Shown: one piece after another, positions 2,248 to 45,060 of the stretch
How positions within the stretch are numbered: the first letter of the stretch is position 1
Layout: every line of letters starts with the position of its first letter
From: Utricularia gibba
Lineage: Eukaryota > Streptophyta > Magnoliopsida > Lamiales > Lentibulariaceae
DNA: 64,000 nt
Reading direction: 5' to 3'
NCBI GenBank assembly: GCA_002189035.1
Contig: CM007992.1
Location: 2,108,001 to 2,172,000, forward strand
Notes under the pieces: generated by a model
The model's database searches: none
What the model was told of the DNA's origin: nothing
Seen by the model: only the letters and a program-made list of their open reading frames with translations
Position numbers and translations under genes: made by a program

Positions 2248-3288
2248 GTGTCGATCATGGATGCTACTCAATCAGGTGCTGTCTGGAAGTTCAACGGCGA
2301 AGATTATGCAATATGGGCAGTACAAATGACTGCTTACCTACAAGCAATGAAACTGTGGGAGACCGTTAGTTCTAGCGTGCAGCCTGAAACTCTCTCGGCA
2401 AATGCTTCGTTGGAACGAGTTAAAAGATAAGAAGAACTCCAAGTTCGGGAAGGACAAGCCAAAGTCGTTCTCTACTCAGGTATGGATAAGTCCATAATTC
2501 CAAGAACACTAATGTGCAAAACAGCCAAGGAGATCTAGGATAAGCTCAAAATGGAGTTTAAAGGAGATGCACATTCTAAGGAGATACGAATCACAAACCT
2601 TGAAATGGAGTATGAAAGCATGAGAATGCTGCCATCTGAGACGGTAAAAATGTATGTTGATTGTTTTATGAAGGTAGTTACCCAATTACAAATGCTAGGA
2701 GATATCAAGAGTGAATTCACCCTAGCTAAGAAAATCATGCACACAGCGTTGCCGTGTTTCGAGCCCAAGATTTCCTCTCTAGAATGCAGCACTGATTATC
2801 CAAACCTCACGGTTGCAAAAATCTCTAGTGCTCTTCAAGCTCTTGAGTGTAGGGTTGCAGCTAGAGACCATGTGATGGAGAGAGCACTAGTTGCTTTGCA
2901 GCTTGGGAAGTCTGCTCTTAACCAATCTGGTCCTAAGGAGAAAACTGCTGAAGCAAGCAAAAATAAAGGACGCAAAAGAAAAGAGAAAGCAAAATTCCCT
3001 CCATGCAAGCATTGTAACAGAAATTCACATTCTGAAAGTTTTTGTTTCTGGAGGCCAGATGCACATTGCTCGGTGTGTAATCAATTAGGTCATGTGGACA
3101 AAGTATGCAAAAAGAAAAATCAGCCACCACAAGTTCAAGCCTCCGTTGCTGAAATTGTTACATATGGTGGGACTGAAAATTTATTTGCTACTACACTATT
3201 CTATCCCAGCAATAGTGGAGCAAAATCTCTGCTGCCAGATGCGTCAAAGGCCGAGGTTCTGTTTGCAGGTAGAACCCAAACAGCATAA
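2248..3288 (+). pseudogene. Copia-1 gag (nucleocapsid) region, interrupted by stops
   Basis: Gag forms the virus-like particle and binds element RNA. The frame starts right after the primer site and contains VWKFNGEDYAIWAVQMTAYL, the copia N-terminal block (WxFxGxxYxxWxxxM). The middle resembles the plant copia gag region with KMYVDCFMKVVTQLQMLG. Near the end are a lysine-rich stretch and cysteine-rich motifs CKHCNRNSH and CSVCNQLGHVDKVC, the latter a CCHC zinc knuckle. Stops at TAA 2428-2430, TAG 2536-2538 and TAA 3286-3288 interrupt it. All three lie in the same frame as the following protease, which suggests gag and pol once formed one polyprotein. Confidence 0.9.
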
Positions 3289-6200
3289 TACACTCCACTA
3301 ACTGGTTGGCTTGTGGATTCAGGGTGCTCTGCGCATATGATTGGAGATAAAAATTGCTTTGCAACATTAAACTACTCTAAGACTGCAAGCATAAGGCTTG
3401 GAAATGGTGAAATGCTGGAGGCCATTGCCAAAGGATCTGTTTTGGTGCAAACACCACTAGGAATCATATGCTTACAGGATGTTTACCTAGTTCCAAGGCT
3501 CAACATCAACCTGTTGAGTGTGAAAAAACTTGATGACAAAGGATTTAAAGTCATCTTCGAAGGTGGAACTTGCACAATCATAGACCCATCAGGGGTTGAG
3601 GTGATTAAAATATTAGCCACTGGAGATAACTATCATCTACCCTGGCCTCTCATTATGACTGAGTCAGCTAATGCAGCTGGTGTGGTGTCTCAGTCACGAT
3701 GGCATAAGGTATTTGGTCATATCAACAACCATACTCTAGAGCTAATGTCTAAAAGGCAGACTTGCAGAGATCTACCACAATTACACTCACTTGACAGGCC
3801 CAGCTGTGCCATTTGTTTGCAAGGTAAGATGAAGCAGGTTCCTTATCCACATCAAGCTGGGTTCAGGGCTGAAAAACATCTAGAGCTAGTACATTCTGAC
3901 ATATGTGGTCCTATGAAAGTAGAATCACTGGGTGGCAGCAGGTATTTCATAAGTTTTATTGATGATATGTCTCGATATTGCTGGATTTTCTTTATGAAAT
4001 ACAAAAGCCAAGCTCTGGAAAACTATCTCAACTATAAAGCCTTAGTTGAGAAGAGTTCTGGTTGTAAGATGATGTGTCTCCGGATAGATAATGGTGGAGA
4101 ATTCAACTCCACCCTCTTCAAAGATGAGCTGAGAAAGGAAGGGATCAAAATGGTGTAGTGGAAAGGAAAAATGGAGTGATCATGGCCATGGCTCGTTGCT
4201 TACTTCTAGAAAAGAGGCTACCCAAACAATTCTGGTGTGAAGCAGTGGCCACAGCTGTTTATGTGCAAAACAGGATTGCATCAAGCAGCTTGGATGGCAT
4301 AACACCATACAAAGTATGGCATGGTAGGAAACCAGCTGTTGGCCACCTCAGGGTATTCGGATCAATAGCATACACTCTAGTGCCAGCTGAGTTGCGGTCA
4401 AAGCTGGATAACCGTTCGTTGGCTGATATATTCATCGGATACTCTGAAGGTACTAAAGGCTATAGAATCTACAATCCACAAAAAAAAAGAGTAAGTATAG
4501 CTCGAAGTATGTGGATTGATGAGGATGACTTCTAGGATTGGGAGTACAACCTTCCTGCCTCACATGTGGTTAGTATCTCAAAAAAGGTCAATCTTTATTC
4601 CTCTAACGATTTTTCTCTTGATGACCTGGATGATGATGCTTATTCGGGTACACCCCCTCAACTTGATGATGTGAATAGCTCAGATAATCCGATAGATGCT
4701 CAAGAGAGCATCCACTCACCAAGTAGCACTCCCTCCAACCTTGATGAATCTGAGGGCACAAGGTTTCGATTGTTATCAGACATATATCACGAGACAGCAG
4801 AAAATCAAACAGGAACATCACTTCAAAGGACAAGGTCATTTACAGACATACATGAATATGCAAACCTTGCCATTGCATCCTCAGAACCGCAAACTGTTGG
4901 GGAAGCCTTACAACAATCCCATTGGAAAAGGGCTATGGAAGAAGAGCTCAAGATGATTCACAAACATAACACCTGGATTCTGGTCGATCCTTCACCTGAA
5001 GCCCATATCATTGGACTAAAATGGGTGTTCAAGATCAAGACTAATGCTGATGGAACTCTACAAAAGTATAAGGCAAGGTTGGTAGTCAAAGGCTACTCCC
5101 AAGAGTATGGTATTGATTACTATGATACCTTCGCCCCTGTTGCTAGATTTGATACCATTAGACTCTTACTTGCTATTGCAGCACAAGAGAATTGGAGAGT
5201 TCATCAGATGGATGTCAAGTCGGCCTTTTTAAATGGAGATTTACAGGAAAAAATCTACTGCAAGCAACCACCTAGATTCGAAATCCTAGGAAACAAGGTA
5301 TGTCTCTTACTAAAAGCCTTATATGGTCTAAAGCAGGCCCCTAGAGCCTAGTATGAACATTTGGAAAAGGCTCTATTGGATTTTGGATTTGAAAAATCCA
5401 AAAATGATGCAGCACTATTCGTCTATCTGGAGGATAACAAGGCAATCCTGATCACGGTTATTTATGTTGATGACATTATGATTACAGGAGAGAATGTCTC
5501 TCAGATAAACAAATTCAAGAGTTTTCTGAAAGGCGCGTTTGAGATGTCAGGCCTTGGGCTAATGCACCAATTTTTAGGTATGGAAGTTGAGCAACTACCA
5601 ATTGGAATTTTTCTCTCACAGACCAAATTCTCTACAAATATGCTAAGGAAGTTTGGATATTCAGAATGTTTTGCTGCCAACTCCCCTATATTGCAAAATT
5701 ACAAATCATTTTTTGCAGAGGAAGGGAAGGCTATTGACTTAACGCTTTTCAGATCAATTGTCGGGTCATTGATGTTCCTCACCAACACTAGGCCAGACAT
5801 TATGTTTGTAACGGGCCTTCTCTCTAGGTTTATGCACCAGCCTATGGAAAATCACTTGCAGTGTGCGAAAAGGGTTTTGAGGTACATTGCTGGAACATCT
5901 TCTTATGGCTTATACTACAAGAAAAGCAGCAAGGATTTATATGGTTTCGTTGACTCAGATTTTGCAGGAACCAAGGATTTCAGAAGTACTTCTGGTTATG
6001 TGTTCAAACTTGCATCGGCTGGTATATGTTGGAACTCAAAAAAGCAGGCGGATATAGCACAATCCACTGCTAAAGCAGAGTATATGGCTGCATCTCTTGC
6101 TGGAAACCAAGCTTGCTGGTTGAGAAAAATGTTCACGGATGTTGGAAAAAAAAATCAGGCAGCTACGCTGATATTCTGTGACTCCAAGAGTGCAATTGCC

Positions 6201-6452
6201 AAGATTAAAGATCCTGTTTTCCATGGAAGGACGAAACATATTTCAGTAAAGTATCACTGCATTCGGGAAAGACAAAAGAACAAGGAACTTAGTTTCTTGC
6301 ATTGTAGTTCAGAAGAACAAGTAGCTGATGTCCTCACTAAAGCATTACCTCTCGGACACTTTGAGCATATGAGGAATCAGCTAGGCGTGATTGATGGAAA
6401 AACGATCAAGGGGGAGATTGTCACTGATACTGATCGTTCCTCTCATGTCTAA
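3289..6452 (+). pseudogene. Copia-1 pol: protease, integrase, reverse transcriptase, RNase H
   Basis: Domains in order: aspartic protease LVDSGCSAHM (about 3310); GAG-pre-integrase with WHKVFGHINNHTLELM; integrase core with HSDICGP, RIDNGGEF and NGVVERKN, giving the D, D and E positions; reverse transcriptase with LKWVFKIKTNADG, QMDVKSAFLNGDL and the catalytic VIYVDDIMI; RNase H with VDSDFAGTKDFRSTSGY and ending VADVLTKALP. Near 4147 the frame shifts from +1 to +3 and the expected stretch between GIK and NGVVERKN is missing, a small deletion in integrase. TAG at 4533-4535 and at 5349-5351, the latter directly after YGLKQAPRA, interrupt it further. The last codons run into the 3' LTR and stop at 6450-6452. 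Confidence 0.93.
6408..6417 (+). other. Polypurine tract of Copia-1
   Basis: AAGGGGGAGA immediately before the 3' LTR. This is the plus-strand primer position of LTR retrotransposons. Confidence 0.9.
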
Positions 6453-16016: not shown

Positions 16017-16230
16017 TTTGTACTAAAATTAAACGTAGCCTTAAAGAAAAAAAGAACTACAGCAAACGAAAGTGAAATCAGGGCCATTAAATAGGCATAA
16101 GTGCAACAGCCGATCCGCAAAAGTCTATGGGCACAGATCTCGACAGGCAGCGGCGGATGACTTGGAACCTCACTCAATGTATTCAACACCCTCCAAGAAG
16201 TTAAGGAAGACGCTCACGTGGGTTAACAAG

Positions 16231-16239
16231 CTCCCCCTT
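16231..16239 (-). other. Polypurine tract of Copia-3
   Basis: AAGGGGGAG on the reverse strand just after the end of RNase H, in the same position as in Copia-1. The 3' LTR starts at 16228 with TGTTAACCCACG. Its outer end is not defined. Confidence 0.75.
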
Positions 16240-17436
16240 GAGCATTTTCCTGTCCACAAGGCCAAGTGCATCTATCAATCTCTCAAATTGACTTGAAAGC
16301 AAAGCCTTTGTAAATATATCCGCAACTTGTTCTTCTAATGAACAGTGTATAAAGCTTAATACCTTGTTTTTTCTATCTCTCTCTAATGCAATGATACTTG
16401 AAAGAGATGTGTTTTGTTCTTCCATAGAAATCGGGTCTTTGATCATTGCTATTGCACTTTTTGAGTCACCTTGTGCAATATCCGATTGTTTCTTTGCATT
16501 CTAGCTAATTCTTGATGATGCATACTTGAAAATATAGCCAGACATGCTCATGAAATCATTAGATCCTACTAAATGAGATCAACGAAGCGATACATGTCTT
16601 TGTTGCTTATAGGGTGTTGGCATTTGTGACCTAAAATTTTGAAATTTTAGCATTTTTGACCCATAACAAAATGATCGGTTCGACATATTTGACCTGAACC
16701 GGTACCGGTTCAGTATATGTGACCCAAAATATTTATAAAATGATATATTTGACAAGTAAAAAATTTATTGCATGACATATTTGACCTATAAAAAATCAAT
16801 TTTGATACTTTTGACCCATAAAATATTATAACGGGGTATATTTGACCCAACGAAAAGTTATAAAAGTTTACAACGGAGTCCGTTTAACCCAATAAGTTTA
16901 ATGTTGGTCCCATGTTTAGTGTTCAGTTGGTATATTCAACCCAATAATTTGGCATATTTGATCTTTATAGTTTAATAATCTAACATTGTTGACCCTTAAG
17001 GTTCATTAAATCCGCATATTTAACTCATAAAGTGTGACAAATTAATATAATTAACCCAATAAGTTTATCGAATTGTCATAAATAACCTATAAAGTTTTTC
17101 AAAATTTTAAACAAATTAAATACTTTTTGAAATAAATATTGATCAATAAGTGCCCTATAGACATGGGCACAGCAGTCAATCCGAATATTTATCGTGTCAA
17201 CCCACTACGATTCGAACCCGTGATGTCGTTGCAAAGTGAACTTAAGATTATTATCAGCATTTTTATACATCAAATTTATTTCTAAACATATGATAACATG
17301 ACAAATGCAAGAATTACAAAAAAAATATTTTTATAAACATATGATATATGTTTCTTAAAATATAAATAACGTAAATATGTTATTTATTAAACCATATAAT
17401 AAATATGAAAGTTTTTTAGTTTTTAATTTTATTAGC

Positions 17437-17750
17437 ATTCAACCTTTAGTTATACTTTGGATGGAGTGTGTATTTTTATTCTAATCATTTTAATTAGTAT
17501 TCGATCCTTGATTATGATTCGAATCGAGTGCATATTTTTTATTTTAATATTTTTATTCTCATTCAACCCTTAGGTATGATTCGGATCAAGCATGTATTTA
17601 TTATTGTAATATTTTTATTAGCATTCGATCCTTAGATATGATTCGCATCGAGGGTATATTTTTTATTTTAATATTTTTATTAACATTCAATCCTTATGTA
17701 TACTTTGGATCGAGTGAATATTCATTTATTTTAAATCTTATTTAGCTTCT
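17437..17750. repeat. Tandem array of 62-bp units
   Basis: Units start at 17437, 17499, 17561, 17623, 17685 and, partially, 17747: exactly 62 bp each time. Each begins ATTC(A/G)A(C/T)CCTT and contains a TGGATCGAGTG-like core followed by a T-rich tail. The units differ by substitutions but keep length, so they expanded before the copies diverged. Confidence 0.9.
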
Positions 17751-17886
17751 ACCCTTAGGAGCAACTTAGATCGTGTACACATGACAATGCCACATGGGCG
17801 TGCCCGTAAGGCCTTGTTGCGCTGTTGGGTGTGTATACGGGTGTGGCTTATGCGTAACCCACGCCCGTATGGCTTACAGGTTTATC

Positions 17887-18410
17887 AGCGCTCGATCCGA
17901 ATCGCCCGTAAGGATCGAGCGCTGTTAAAAAGGCCTTATGCATAAACCACGCCCGTGTGGCTTACAGGTTTATCAGTAATCGATCCGAATATTGCGTAAG
18001 GATCGAGCGCTGATAAAAAGGCCACATGGCCCGTGTGGCTTACAGGTTTGTTAGCTCCATCCGAATCGCGTGAAAGGATCGCGCGCTGATAAAAAGGCCA
18101 CATCAGCGTGGCTTATGCGTAACCCACGCCCGTATGGCTTATAGGTTTATCAGCGCTCGATCCGAATCGCGCGTAAGGATGGAGCGCTGATAAAAAGGCC
18201 ACACGGGCGTGGCTTATGCGTAAACCACTGATAGCGCTTGATCCTAATCGAGCGTAAGGTTCGAGCGCTGAGCCTAAGCCACACAGTTGTGGCTTAGAGG
18301 TTTATCAGTGCTCGATCCGAATCGTGCGTAAGGATCGGGGGCTGAGCCGTGTGGCTTACAGGTTTAGTAGTGCTCGATCCAAATAACGCTTAAGGATCGA
18401 GCGCGGATAA
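17887..18410. repeat. Array of GC-rich hairpins
   Basis: About seven diverged units of roughly 60-100 bp, each with an inverted repeat. The clearest has arms AGCGCTCGATCC at 17887-17898 and GGATCGAGCGCT at 17912-17923 around a 13-nt loop. In others the arms extend through TTTATCAGCGCTCGATCC. Between hairpins are GTGGCTTATGCGTAAACCAC-like segments, themselves partly palindromic. This GC-rich island stands out from its AT-rich surroundings. Confidence 0.85.
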
Positions 18411-19663
18411 AACCGGGTTCAATTATGTAGGTCAAATATGTTAAATCGGTAAATTATTTGGGTCAAATATGACAAAATTGAAATTTTATCAGGTTAAATT
18501 TATTATTATTAAATGGGTGTGTTCTACAGTAACAAAAATCCATAGGTCAAATATGTCAATTCATCAAATTTATGGGTCAAATATGCCCATTCACGAAACT
18601 TTATGGGTCCGTTATGTCCCGTTATGAAAATTTCTAGGTCCGTTATATTTTAAGTCCAGAATTTTTAGGTCATATATGTAATTATCTCGTTGCTTATACT
18701 ATAGAGCAATCCATATGTTGATGTTCCTGCTTTGTTCTTAAGTACTCCTTTTGCATATTCTATGATTTTCCATAGGACACTGCATCAAACTAGATAATAA
18801 GCCGGTAGAAAATGTAATATCAGGTCTAGAATTTGTTAGAAATATAAGTGATCAAACAATTGACCTACAGAATGTGTGGTCCACATCATTTTCAACCTCT
18901 GGGAATATTTACTTACAGTTTCATTTCCTTAACAAATTACTTGTAAACTTGATTTCTGATAGAAGGATTCCATCTTACAACTGCTCAATCTCCATTCCCA
19001 AAAACTGATGCATGAGATCTAAATTCGTCATGTTAAATTTTGACTTCAGGAAGGTCTTGAATGTGTTGATCTAAGAGACACTATTATTCCTGGAAATAAC
19101 ATTTAACCACTAACCTCGCTTTGTACTTTCATAGAGTCCTATCTACATTTGTCTTGGTTTTGAACACCCATTTCAGGACAACAATGTTGGCACCATCAGG
19201 TGGATCAATCAAGTGCCAAGGTGTTATGTTATTGTATCATTTGCAGTTCTGTTTCCATGGCTTCTTTCCAATCAGGATGTAGTAGTGCCTCTCGCACCAT
19301 TTGAGTTTCAGAAGCTGCAATGGATATGTTTGCATACTCATATATGTTAGTGAGGGATCTTGTTCTTTGTAGTGGTGTGGCAGGTTGATTCTATGTAGCT
19401 TGATAGATCTTGGATAGTGATCTGAATCCGGGGAATCCTTTCCTCACCCGAATCATTTGAGGTCTCCCTGAGGTGTGATCACTCCCATGACTTTCACCTT
19501 TGTTATCTAGATCAAATGGATCATCAACACCTAGTGATCCTTCTTCTCGGTATGCATTCTCATCAAGATCATCAAGGAAAAAATCATCAACCGAGAAAAA
19601 GATTAACCTTAGGTGATGAAGTTACCACATGTGAGACTGGAATATTATGCTCCCCATTCCAAA

Positions 19664-42427: not shown

Positions 42428-45060
42428 TCAACGTTGATGGTTTGGCTGGTGGGCAACTATTTTTTTCAAGCTATTTTTAAGGTTAGACAAAATGGTATAG
42501 TTGTTTTTACCTTTAACAATCACTGGTGTATTCACAGCTCTTATGTTATTTGAAACAGGAAAAGTTAATTGTGTAGATGCATGTGTAGTGGTAGCCTTTG
42601 TATAATAAGCAAAGTAAGCCTCGTTACCCACAATTTTTTTTCTTCTTATGTTGTTCTGCAGGTTGATGTAGAGATGCTGGTCGTTTCCCCTTTGTAGCAA
42701 TCTGAAAAAGGACATACATTTTGTATACCACACAAAATTTTTGGAATCACAAGTTTGAATAGAACATACTTGATCTGTGAAACCCAATGCTGTTATTTGG
42801 TTGGTAGTTTCTACTTGTGGTGTTGGATCATCTGTAGAAACTAGAGCATCATTTCCAACTAGTTGATTTACAGTGCTTTCTTGAGTTTGCTATGGCATGA
42901 ATGAAGAACAATGTTAGCAATAAATTGTAACAGAAAAAATGTGTGTGACAAACTTTAAAGAAAGCTTACTGAATGCTCTTTGTTTTTTTGTAGCTTCTTG
43001 CAAGTTCGTTTATTGTGGCCAACTTGTTGGCATGAGCTGCATTGGTTGGACTCCCTTGTTAGCCCTTGTGCTCGGTTCGGATTTTTAACTGGGGGAGGCT
43101 CTTGAGGATTGCGTTTCCTCACCTTTTGTGGCCTGCCAGCCCCTTTTGCATAATTTGGGGGTAATGGAGAAGGAACAACAGAATGCTTCCATAGGTCTTC
43201 ACTAGAAACACACTCAATTGAATGTTGATATTGGCTGATCATGGCACTTGTCTTGTAGCACTCATCAATATAGTTTTCAACCTTATGACCTTACGCCATA
43301 TTGCAGCCACCGCATGACAAAATGGAAACGAAGTTAATTGCCAAGACCCGCAATTGCGTGTTTTTTCCAGTAAATTGATAGTTCTAGTCATGTATGGACC
43401 AACTACTTGATAGTTGTTCTCATCACTCCACATTGCAAAGTATTTTGTTGCATCAACCTCTAATTTTTCCAATCAAGATTTTATCATGGGACATAACTGG
43501 CATTCCCATTTTAAACATTGAGTCCTTATGCTATCAATCCGAATCATCAACAAATTTCTAGGAGAGCATCACACTTAGCAAATAGAGAAAAAAATGCCTT
43601 ACTCCATTCTGTCATATCCCTTTTCTGAAGCCATTCATATGCAGCATGAAATTGTTCTTTCATCTCATCCATGAGATGCTTCCACACTTCCAACCGTGAT
43701 GATCTAGCTGCTGCCCACACCAGTTTTTTAACTGCCATACCAATGAACCCTACCCTTTTCATATTACCGTGCAAGTGCCAGACACAAAAACTCCGTTTCA
43801 GGTAGTAGCTCTTCAAAGCATTCAACTAATCTCTTTTATTTAACGGACATGAATGTCCAAAACTTCCCATTGCCACCTTCAGTTGACAAAATTATCCTTC
43901 TCTACTACAGCAAAAGCATAAGAAAAAATCGAGTTGTTCGCATCTAGGCCAACAGTAATAAGTAACTTACCACCAAACAATCCTTTCAAGAAGCACCCAT
44001 CTAGTCCAATGAATTTACGACAACCATTTTTAAAGTTCTTCTTAATGACTCCAAAACATATATAAACTCCCTGGAATTTTTTGTCTGCATCATTTGTTTC
44101 ACTAGTTGTCTTCAACACAATAATGGAGTCTGGAGTGGCAACTCGTAGCTCACCTAAGTAACTTCTAAGTTTGCTCCATTGCTCATGTGCTGTCCCATCA
44201 AATGCTGCTCTAGCTGCTGCTTTACCATGATGAACCTGTGCCTTAGAAATATCCACCTTTAAGGATGCCACAACATGCTTCCTAAAATCTTGAATTGACA
44301 CTTTGGGATGTTCAGCAACAAACATAGCATACTCCGTACCTAACCACCGTGATTTCATTGACATCAACTTACGCAGCCTACCACAAGCAATGTGCTTCTC
44401 ATGATATGATTTCACAGTCCATCCTTTGTCATTTTGTGTCTGTGAAACGTTGATCATCCACTTACATGCTTTTATCCTGCAGTATGCCACCAACCGTTGT
44501 GGATTGTTGGTCAAAAAAATGGTGTCCTTCCCATTCTTAAAGTTGTAGTTTTCAATTGCCATCTTTGCTTCCTGTTTACTACTAAAAATAAGGTCTTTTT
44601 GTAGAACAGGATTGGCCATTTTTATCTTTAAGTTGAACCTTCTAACCTTGGCTTGGCATCCTAGTTGTAACTCATCTTCATCACTATCTAAACTATCAAA
44701 GTCTTCATCTTCAGTTACCATACCAACCTCATTATCTTCAAAGATATTAGGCATACTTTTTTTTTGCAGCTGTAGACGTCTAGTGAGAGGTAGCAGCTTG
44801 CCCCATGAGAGCCTCACTTGTTGTAATATGCTTCTCAAACACATTTAACTCATCCCTTAAAAATTCTAAATCTGAACCACCTAACTCATCTGGCTGATGA
44901 GTTTCATGTGTATTCTTCCCTATATCATGTTCATATTCTTCGGCTATAACATTATCTTTGTCTATTGACTTGCTTTTTCCTTTTCGACCGTGGCATCTTA
45001 TAGCATTATCTGAGAACTTACAACCTGAGGCGTGATCAATGTTATCCTCTCCAATACAAC
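42428..45060 (-). pseudogene. MULE transposase (MuDR/FAR1-like), main coding part, inactivated
   Basis: Right to left: an acidic region (DELGGSDLEFLRDELNVFEK, then after a frameshift DEDFDSLDSDEDELQ); the MuDR DNA-binding domain with KMANPVLQKDLIFSSKQEAK, CRIKACKWMINVS and KSYHEKHIACGR; the MULE DDE domain with CRKFIGLDGCFLKG (first Asp) and AYAFAVVEKDN-like YAFAVVEKDN; CVWHLHGNMKRVGF and FFSLFAKCDALLE; the SWIM-type C-x-H segment CGSWQLTSFPFCHAVAAI; and a zinc knuckle CSSCQQVGHNKRTC. At the second catalytic Asp, in the block normally reading SD(K/R)QKG, the codon at 43842-43844 is GTT (Val) and the next Gln codon is TAA. The 42428-42787 frame is probably the C-terminal tail. Confidence 0.9.

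Follow-up and report, generated by a model that had tools for sequence, protein, structure and literature searches.

The window (the whole 64,000-nucleotide stretch of DNA that was analysed) contains at 16612-18688 a mobile element of 2077 bp inserted in a copia pol gene. The element, its repeat layers and its flanks were observed as follows:

16200-16601, minus strand: copia pol (RNase H end), the interrupted host gene, left flank (joined-flank alignment, restored reading)
16602-16611: target-site duplication, left copy, GTTGCTTATA, abutting the left end of the element
16612-18688, plus strand: the 2077-bp element, read as a non-autonomous Mutator-like (MULE) copy (borders common to other copies; duplications of 9-11 bp in other insertions)
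16612-16641, plus strand: left terminus, GGGTGTTGGCATTTGTGACCTAAAATTTTG, an imperfect inverted match with the right terminus
16625-17088, plus strand: left subterminal array, ~31-bp units around the core CATATTTGACC, with spacings of 30-33 bp between the first eight motifs
17412-17758, plus strand: AT-rich 62-bp tandem array (about 5 copies) whose unit is a homologue, in reverse complement and more degraded, of the hairpin unit
about 17837-18412, plus strand: GC-rich hairpin array with periods of 74-101 bp (folding, genome search)
18430-18674, minus strand: right subterminal array, the same motif inverted, GGTCAAATATG (motif counts, averaged unit)
18659-18688, minus strand: right terminus, reading inward GAGATAATTACATATATGACC, its first nine bases being those of a maize MuDR terminal inverted repeat (TIR) primer
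18689-18698: target-site duplication, right copy, GTTGCTTATA, abutting the right end of the element
18699-19100, minus strand: copia pol, the interrupted host gene, right flank (joined-flank alignment, restored reading)

The 10-bp target-site duplication (TSD) was perfect, with GTTGCTTATA observed without mismatch at both borders. When the flanks were joined with one copy of it retained, they read AGTSTYGLLYSISNKDMYRFVD, a gap-free match to AGTSSYGLYYKKSSKDLYGFVD of another copia in the window (5361-6452), and the frame was restored, in agreement with the first-pass annotation, which had described a copia reading that resumes across the insertion. A diverged, related copia copy (L039) provided the empty-site check, aligning uninterrupted through the joined flanks where the window copy has its insert and containing the 10-bp stretch only once. 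The flanking copia carries stops and is therefore an old copy. The copia used as the empty-site reference lies at window 2551-6452 (+), has long open frames with an RVT_2 domain (2.6e-20) and is related to the degraded copia that holds the insertion. The interior of the element was coding-free, as first described, with no ORF >75 aa observed within 16612-18688.

The element's own genome (100.09 Mb, 516 contigs) was searched with the left 149 bp and the right 153 bp of the element, and paired matches were fetched with their flanks. We found at least 28 matches to the left end and at least 27 to the right. Many copies aligned from and to exactly bases 16612 and 18688, so both proposed borders were retained, and other copies have both ends of the window element in common. 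The family is mobile: seven further copies, representing six distinct insertions, were bounded by perfect duplications of 9-11 bp, some of these located by letting the border shift by up to 3 bases and two of them (L010 and L019) having less certain exact ends:

L009: CTGAAAATTC (10 bp)
L018: GTAATCGAGG
L010: GTAGTTGGTG
L019: TTTTCTACACA
L015 and L016, one insertion: CCCATGAAG
L017: GTTTTGAAA

The flanks of L015 and L016 were identical, and these copies are thus a single insertion present on two contigs. Two other copies (L012 and L011) had duplications with one mismatch each. We also observed two same-strand copies with 4.7 kb between them, L013 (G000:C4:1959125-1962344) and L014 (G000:C4:1967032-1970073), whose duplications were swapped, the outer flanks reading TTAATSTATA with one mismatch and the inner flanks matching exactly as GTTCTAAAAG. 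This arrangement suggests an exchange between two copies, e.g. a circle with one copy integrated into the other.

The imperfect inverted ends noticed at first were present, with an alignment score of 7 over 30 bp, a value also attained by 7 of 5000 random pairs. This short terminal repeat seems to be made of the outermost ~31-bp unit of each end, so that beyond this unit the two ends have little in common. The left terminus usually begins GGGGTG in the family and GGGTG, shorter by one G, in the window copy. Duplications of 9-11 bp at common borders place the family in the Mutator superfamily, for which a TSD of 8-11 bp (10 bp in the window and 9-11 bp in the six other distinct insertions), terminal inverted repeats (here short and imperfect) and ends in common with a copy coding for a MULE-domain (DDE) transposase (L009, below) were all observed; the Mutator-like partner that the 10-bp TSD had first pointed to was therefore found. 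A CACTA element, which also has subterminal repeat arrays, was considered on account of the short inverted subterminal motifs and was rejected as extremely improbable, as the TSDs are 9-11 bp rather than 3 bp, the termini read GGGG.../GAGATAATT rather than CACTA, and the coding sister is of MuDR type. Long fold-back arms of the Foldback kind were also not found, the two arms sharing imperfect stretches of 47 bp at most. This low-copy MULE family, whose ends are short and match poorly, may already bear a name in Repbase or PlantRep.

The coding sister (L009, C1:3322134-3328982) is 6849 bp long, has a perfect 10-bp TSD and has the same ends as the window element, to which its left 795 bp are 91% and its right ~342 bp 93% identical. 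Searching the genome for the MULE domain (PF10551) yielded 150 scored matches; one lies within L009 (C1:3326274-3326543), and more were observed in or beside other copies with these ends (C2:3294659, C213:3349799). Between the shared ends, the minus strand of L009 carries exons with DBD_Tnp_Mut (PF03108, 8.3e-9), MULE (PF10551, 2.6e-10), SWIM and CCHC domains, the SWIM and zf-CCHC matches falling just short of their cut-offs. The zinc-ligand spacing C-X7-C-X21-H could be read directly from the DNA-binding exon, and a PDB search with this exon returned nothing usable. A coding element with matching ends, which the first-pass annotation had proposed to look for, therefore exists and holds a MuDR-type transposase. 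The genes of L009 were observed again in L020 at 90-96% DNA identity; a right end for L020 was not found in the right-end genome search. L009 has an in-frame stop, other coding copies have stops or frameshifts, and among the copies fetched no intact transposase source was observed, the best coding copies being damaged.

A second ORF, on the transposase strand, recurs in many copies (L009, L010, L020, L025, L028, L034). Its similarity to the end of a Ulp1 protease lies below thresholds (Pfam C48, E=0.25; SENP7 in a PDB sequence search, E=0.23) and is no more than suggestive of a C48 protease. An apparent intron of the transposase gene has tandem repeats of its own, with periods of 58-69 bp and variable copy number (L009 3637-3772; L020 3470-3855; L010 2408-3094), and array growth thus extends beyond the ends. 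An open frame at L009 7076-7447 (-) starts in the right end and continues into the right flank, where it reads by eye as leucine-rich repeats of a receptor-like protein; the L009 copy may sit in a gene.

The window element is gene-free and has its ends in common with transposase-coding L009, which identifies it as a non-autonomous deletion derivative. We consider it highly probable that it arose by internal deletion and was mobilised in trans by a MuDR-type transposase from larger sisters like C1:3322134-3328982.

The inner arrays bear on how the coding core was lost. Both the 62-bp tandem array (17412-17758) and the GC-rich hairpin array (about 17837-18412) were present as first described. 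Two hairpin units folded as single-stranded DNA gave z-scores of -5.6 and -5.1 against shuffles, while two tested AT-rich units folded no better than shuffles. A genome search with a 93-bp hairpin-array query matched copies of this family only. The 62-bp unit aligned with the hairpin unit in reverse complement (TTTTTATCAGCGCTCGATCCTTACGCGCGATTCGGATCGAG against TTTTTATTAGCATTCGATCCTTAGTTATGATTCGGATCGAG), with a score of 25 against a shuffle maximum of 13, and the idea of three independent repeat layers was therefore rejected. All three arrays exist, but two of them are homologous, which leaves two unrelated layers. On this alignment the 62-bp and hairpin arrays are one repeat in two states. Differences between the units were mostly C/T or G/A, which fits decay, and we infer that the 62-bp unit is the decayed form of the hairpin unit.

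The GC arrays flank the coding core of L009 as direct repeats, and recombination between them is the likely route of deletion and the simplest reading of the copies. The coding core would have been lost by such recombination, leaving products such as the window copy and L018 (1453 bp), the latter consisting of left end, one array and right end and nothing more. A simple route is thereby suggested by which direct hairpin-array recombination converts gene-carrying copies to gene-free ones.

The outer layer consists of one ~31-bp unit with the core CATATTTGACC, inverted between the ends and beginning ~13 bp inside each terminus. Allowing one mismatch, the left arm held 11 copies of TTTGACC (mean of 1.4 and maximum of 6 in shuffles) and the right arm 6 of GGTCAAA (mean of 1.4 and maximum of 5), and neither arm contained its motif in the reverse orientation; the inverted motif arrays seen at first behind each end were thus present, in one orientation per arm. 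The first eight left motifs were separated by 30, 33, 30, 30, 32, 30 and 31 bp, a spacing coherence of R=0.99 at 31 bp whose observed best was reached by 0 of 1500 random sets. Coherence was weaker in the right arm. The averaged unit reads RCATATTTGACCYATAAAAtTT. A paired pattern, TATTTGACC-N18-25-TTTGACC, had 40 matches in the genome, nearly all at the ends of this family, and its reversed control had none. A general W-box array across all MULEs of the genome was rejected because hardly any matches to the paired pattern lie outside this family.

Whether the motif columns are under constraint was judged from the copies of the family. In a plain column-conservation test the motif columns were no better conserved than their neighbours. 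Substitutions among the copies were mostly C>T and G>A, so this test penalises GACC. In a base-matched test, a second look at the same data, conservation of the motif columns exceeded that of 427 of the 429 shifted masks for the left end and 270 of the 289 for the right end, counts that are not strict probabilities since the copies are related. The base-matched result lends modest support to constraint on the motif columns. Binding of the motif arrays by a transposase, as first suggested, is plausible and weakly supported by conservation, with the base-matched result in its favour and the null result of the plain test against it.

The arrays might instead be without function, the ends having grown by slippage or unequal exchange with only the terminal ~30 bp being of importance. 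Slippage can make tandem arrays that have no binding role, the inner repeat sets grow and shrink between copies, and the plain test gave no excess for the motif; however, the base-matched conservation exceeded that of most shifts and the ~31-bp spacing was kept in copies up to about 19% diverged, and we regard this explanation as unlikely.

TTTGACC contains TTGACC, the plant W-box core. We also weighed a role in expression or anti-silencing, in which an element or host factor (VANC-like or WRKY) binds the arrays so that the element stays hypomethylated or transcribed. Noncoding parts of VANDAL MULEs accumulate tandem arrays, in the same orientation, of the short motifs to which VANC proteins bind (PMC5735166), and the second ORF is recurrent in many copies, but this ORF looks weakly Ulp1 protease-like rather than VANC-like. 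The arrays also lie ~13 bp from the termini and are inverted between the ends, as transposase sites should be, and the predominance of C>T and G>A is what methylated copies would show, so we hold such a role to be doubtful.

Binding by the transposase remains our preferred reading, and it most likely takes place at the phased TTTGACC motifs. The DNA-binding domain DBD_Tnp_Mut belongs to the WRKY-GCM1 superfamily (PMC9569675), and this kinship together with the W-box core in the motif makes the pairing attractive. A MuDR-type transposase from larger sister copies would mobilise the window element in trans, its N-terminal WRKY-GCM1-type zinc finger (DBD_Tnp_Mut) docking on the phased, inverted, W-box-like TTTGACC units of both ends, and the docked transposase would bring the two ends together for cutting. 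More tentatively, the WRKY-like zinc finger may read W-box-type sites three helical turns apart, in which case a single protein fold and an almost identical DNA word would serve both plant WRKY transcription factors and this MULE lineage, and the ends could be contested by WRKY factors of the host. A MULE can apparently keep working ends almost without a terminal inverted repeat, both ends being arrays of one phased unit. In CATATTTGACC, repeated every ~31 bp, the family also offers a concrete candidate site at which the WRKY-GCM1-type DNA-binding domain of MuDR-like transposases may dock; a relation of this domain to WRKY factors has been argued from protein sequence.

Subterminal arrays and dissimilar ends are already known in MULEs, and this family is a further member of that kind. 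MULEs of the non-TIR type, whose ends are short and dissimilar, form a recognised class (PMC3903597), into which the terminal repeats of this family fit. Like such plant elements (VANDAL, Kaonashi) the family has 9-11 bp TSDs, short and poorly matching terminal repeats, a MuDR-type transposase with DBD_Tnp_Mut, MULE, SWIM and CCHC domains, and derivatives that lack coding sequence. With VANDAL it also shares tandem arrays of a motif in noncoding DNA, while the motif CATATTTGACC at ~31 bp, inverted at both ends, differs from VANDAL and Kaonashi. In KI-MULEs a Ulp1-type ORF is opposite in orientation to the transposase (PMC2528002), whereas the weakly Ulp1-like second ORF observed here is on the transposase strand. 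Muta1, a MULE of Aedes aegypti, has 145-bp TIRs each with nine 12-bp repeats and 8-9 bp TSDs (PMC5225508); in both families each end has a terminal motif with subterminal tandem repeats behind it, and nonautonomous derivatives vary in repeat number, but our unit is ~31 bp and the ends share little besides it. Composite, repeat-built ends and 9-bp TSDs recall Foldback-type MULEs (Tm1, with ~14-bp repeats, PMC3169594; FARE and MuTAnT, PMC4486113), and the number of terminal Gs varies as in MuTAnT, which has a terminal G run of variable length (PMC4486113). Unlike these, the window element has no long fold-back arms, and its hairpin arrays lie inside the ends and are direct, not inverted, repeats in L009.

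The transposase domain set is like that of maize MuDR, for which we know of no described phased motif array. The right terminus starts with the same nine bases, GAGATAATT, as a MuDR primer (PMC2563033). Mu element TIRs are reported to be ~215 bp long (PMC2774946), and the short ends of the window family differ from the long TIRs of MuDR. A separate MuDR-type transposase fragment was observed elsewhere in the window, at 43879-44844 (-), as a 321-aa ORF with a PF03108 match (E=8.6e-5) just under the curated cut-off.
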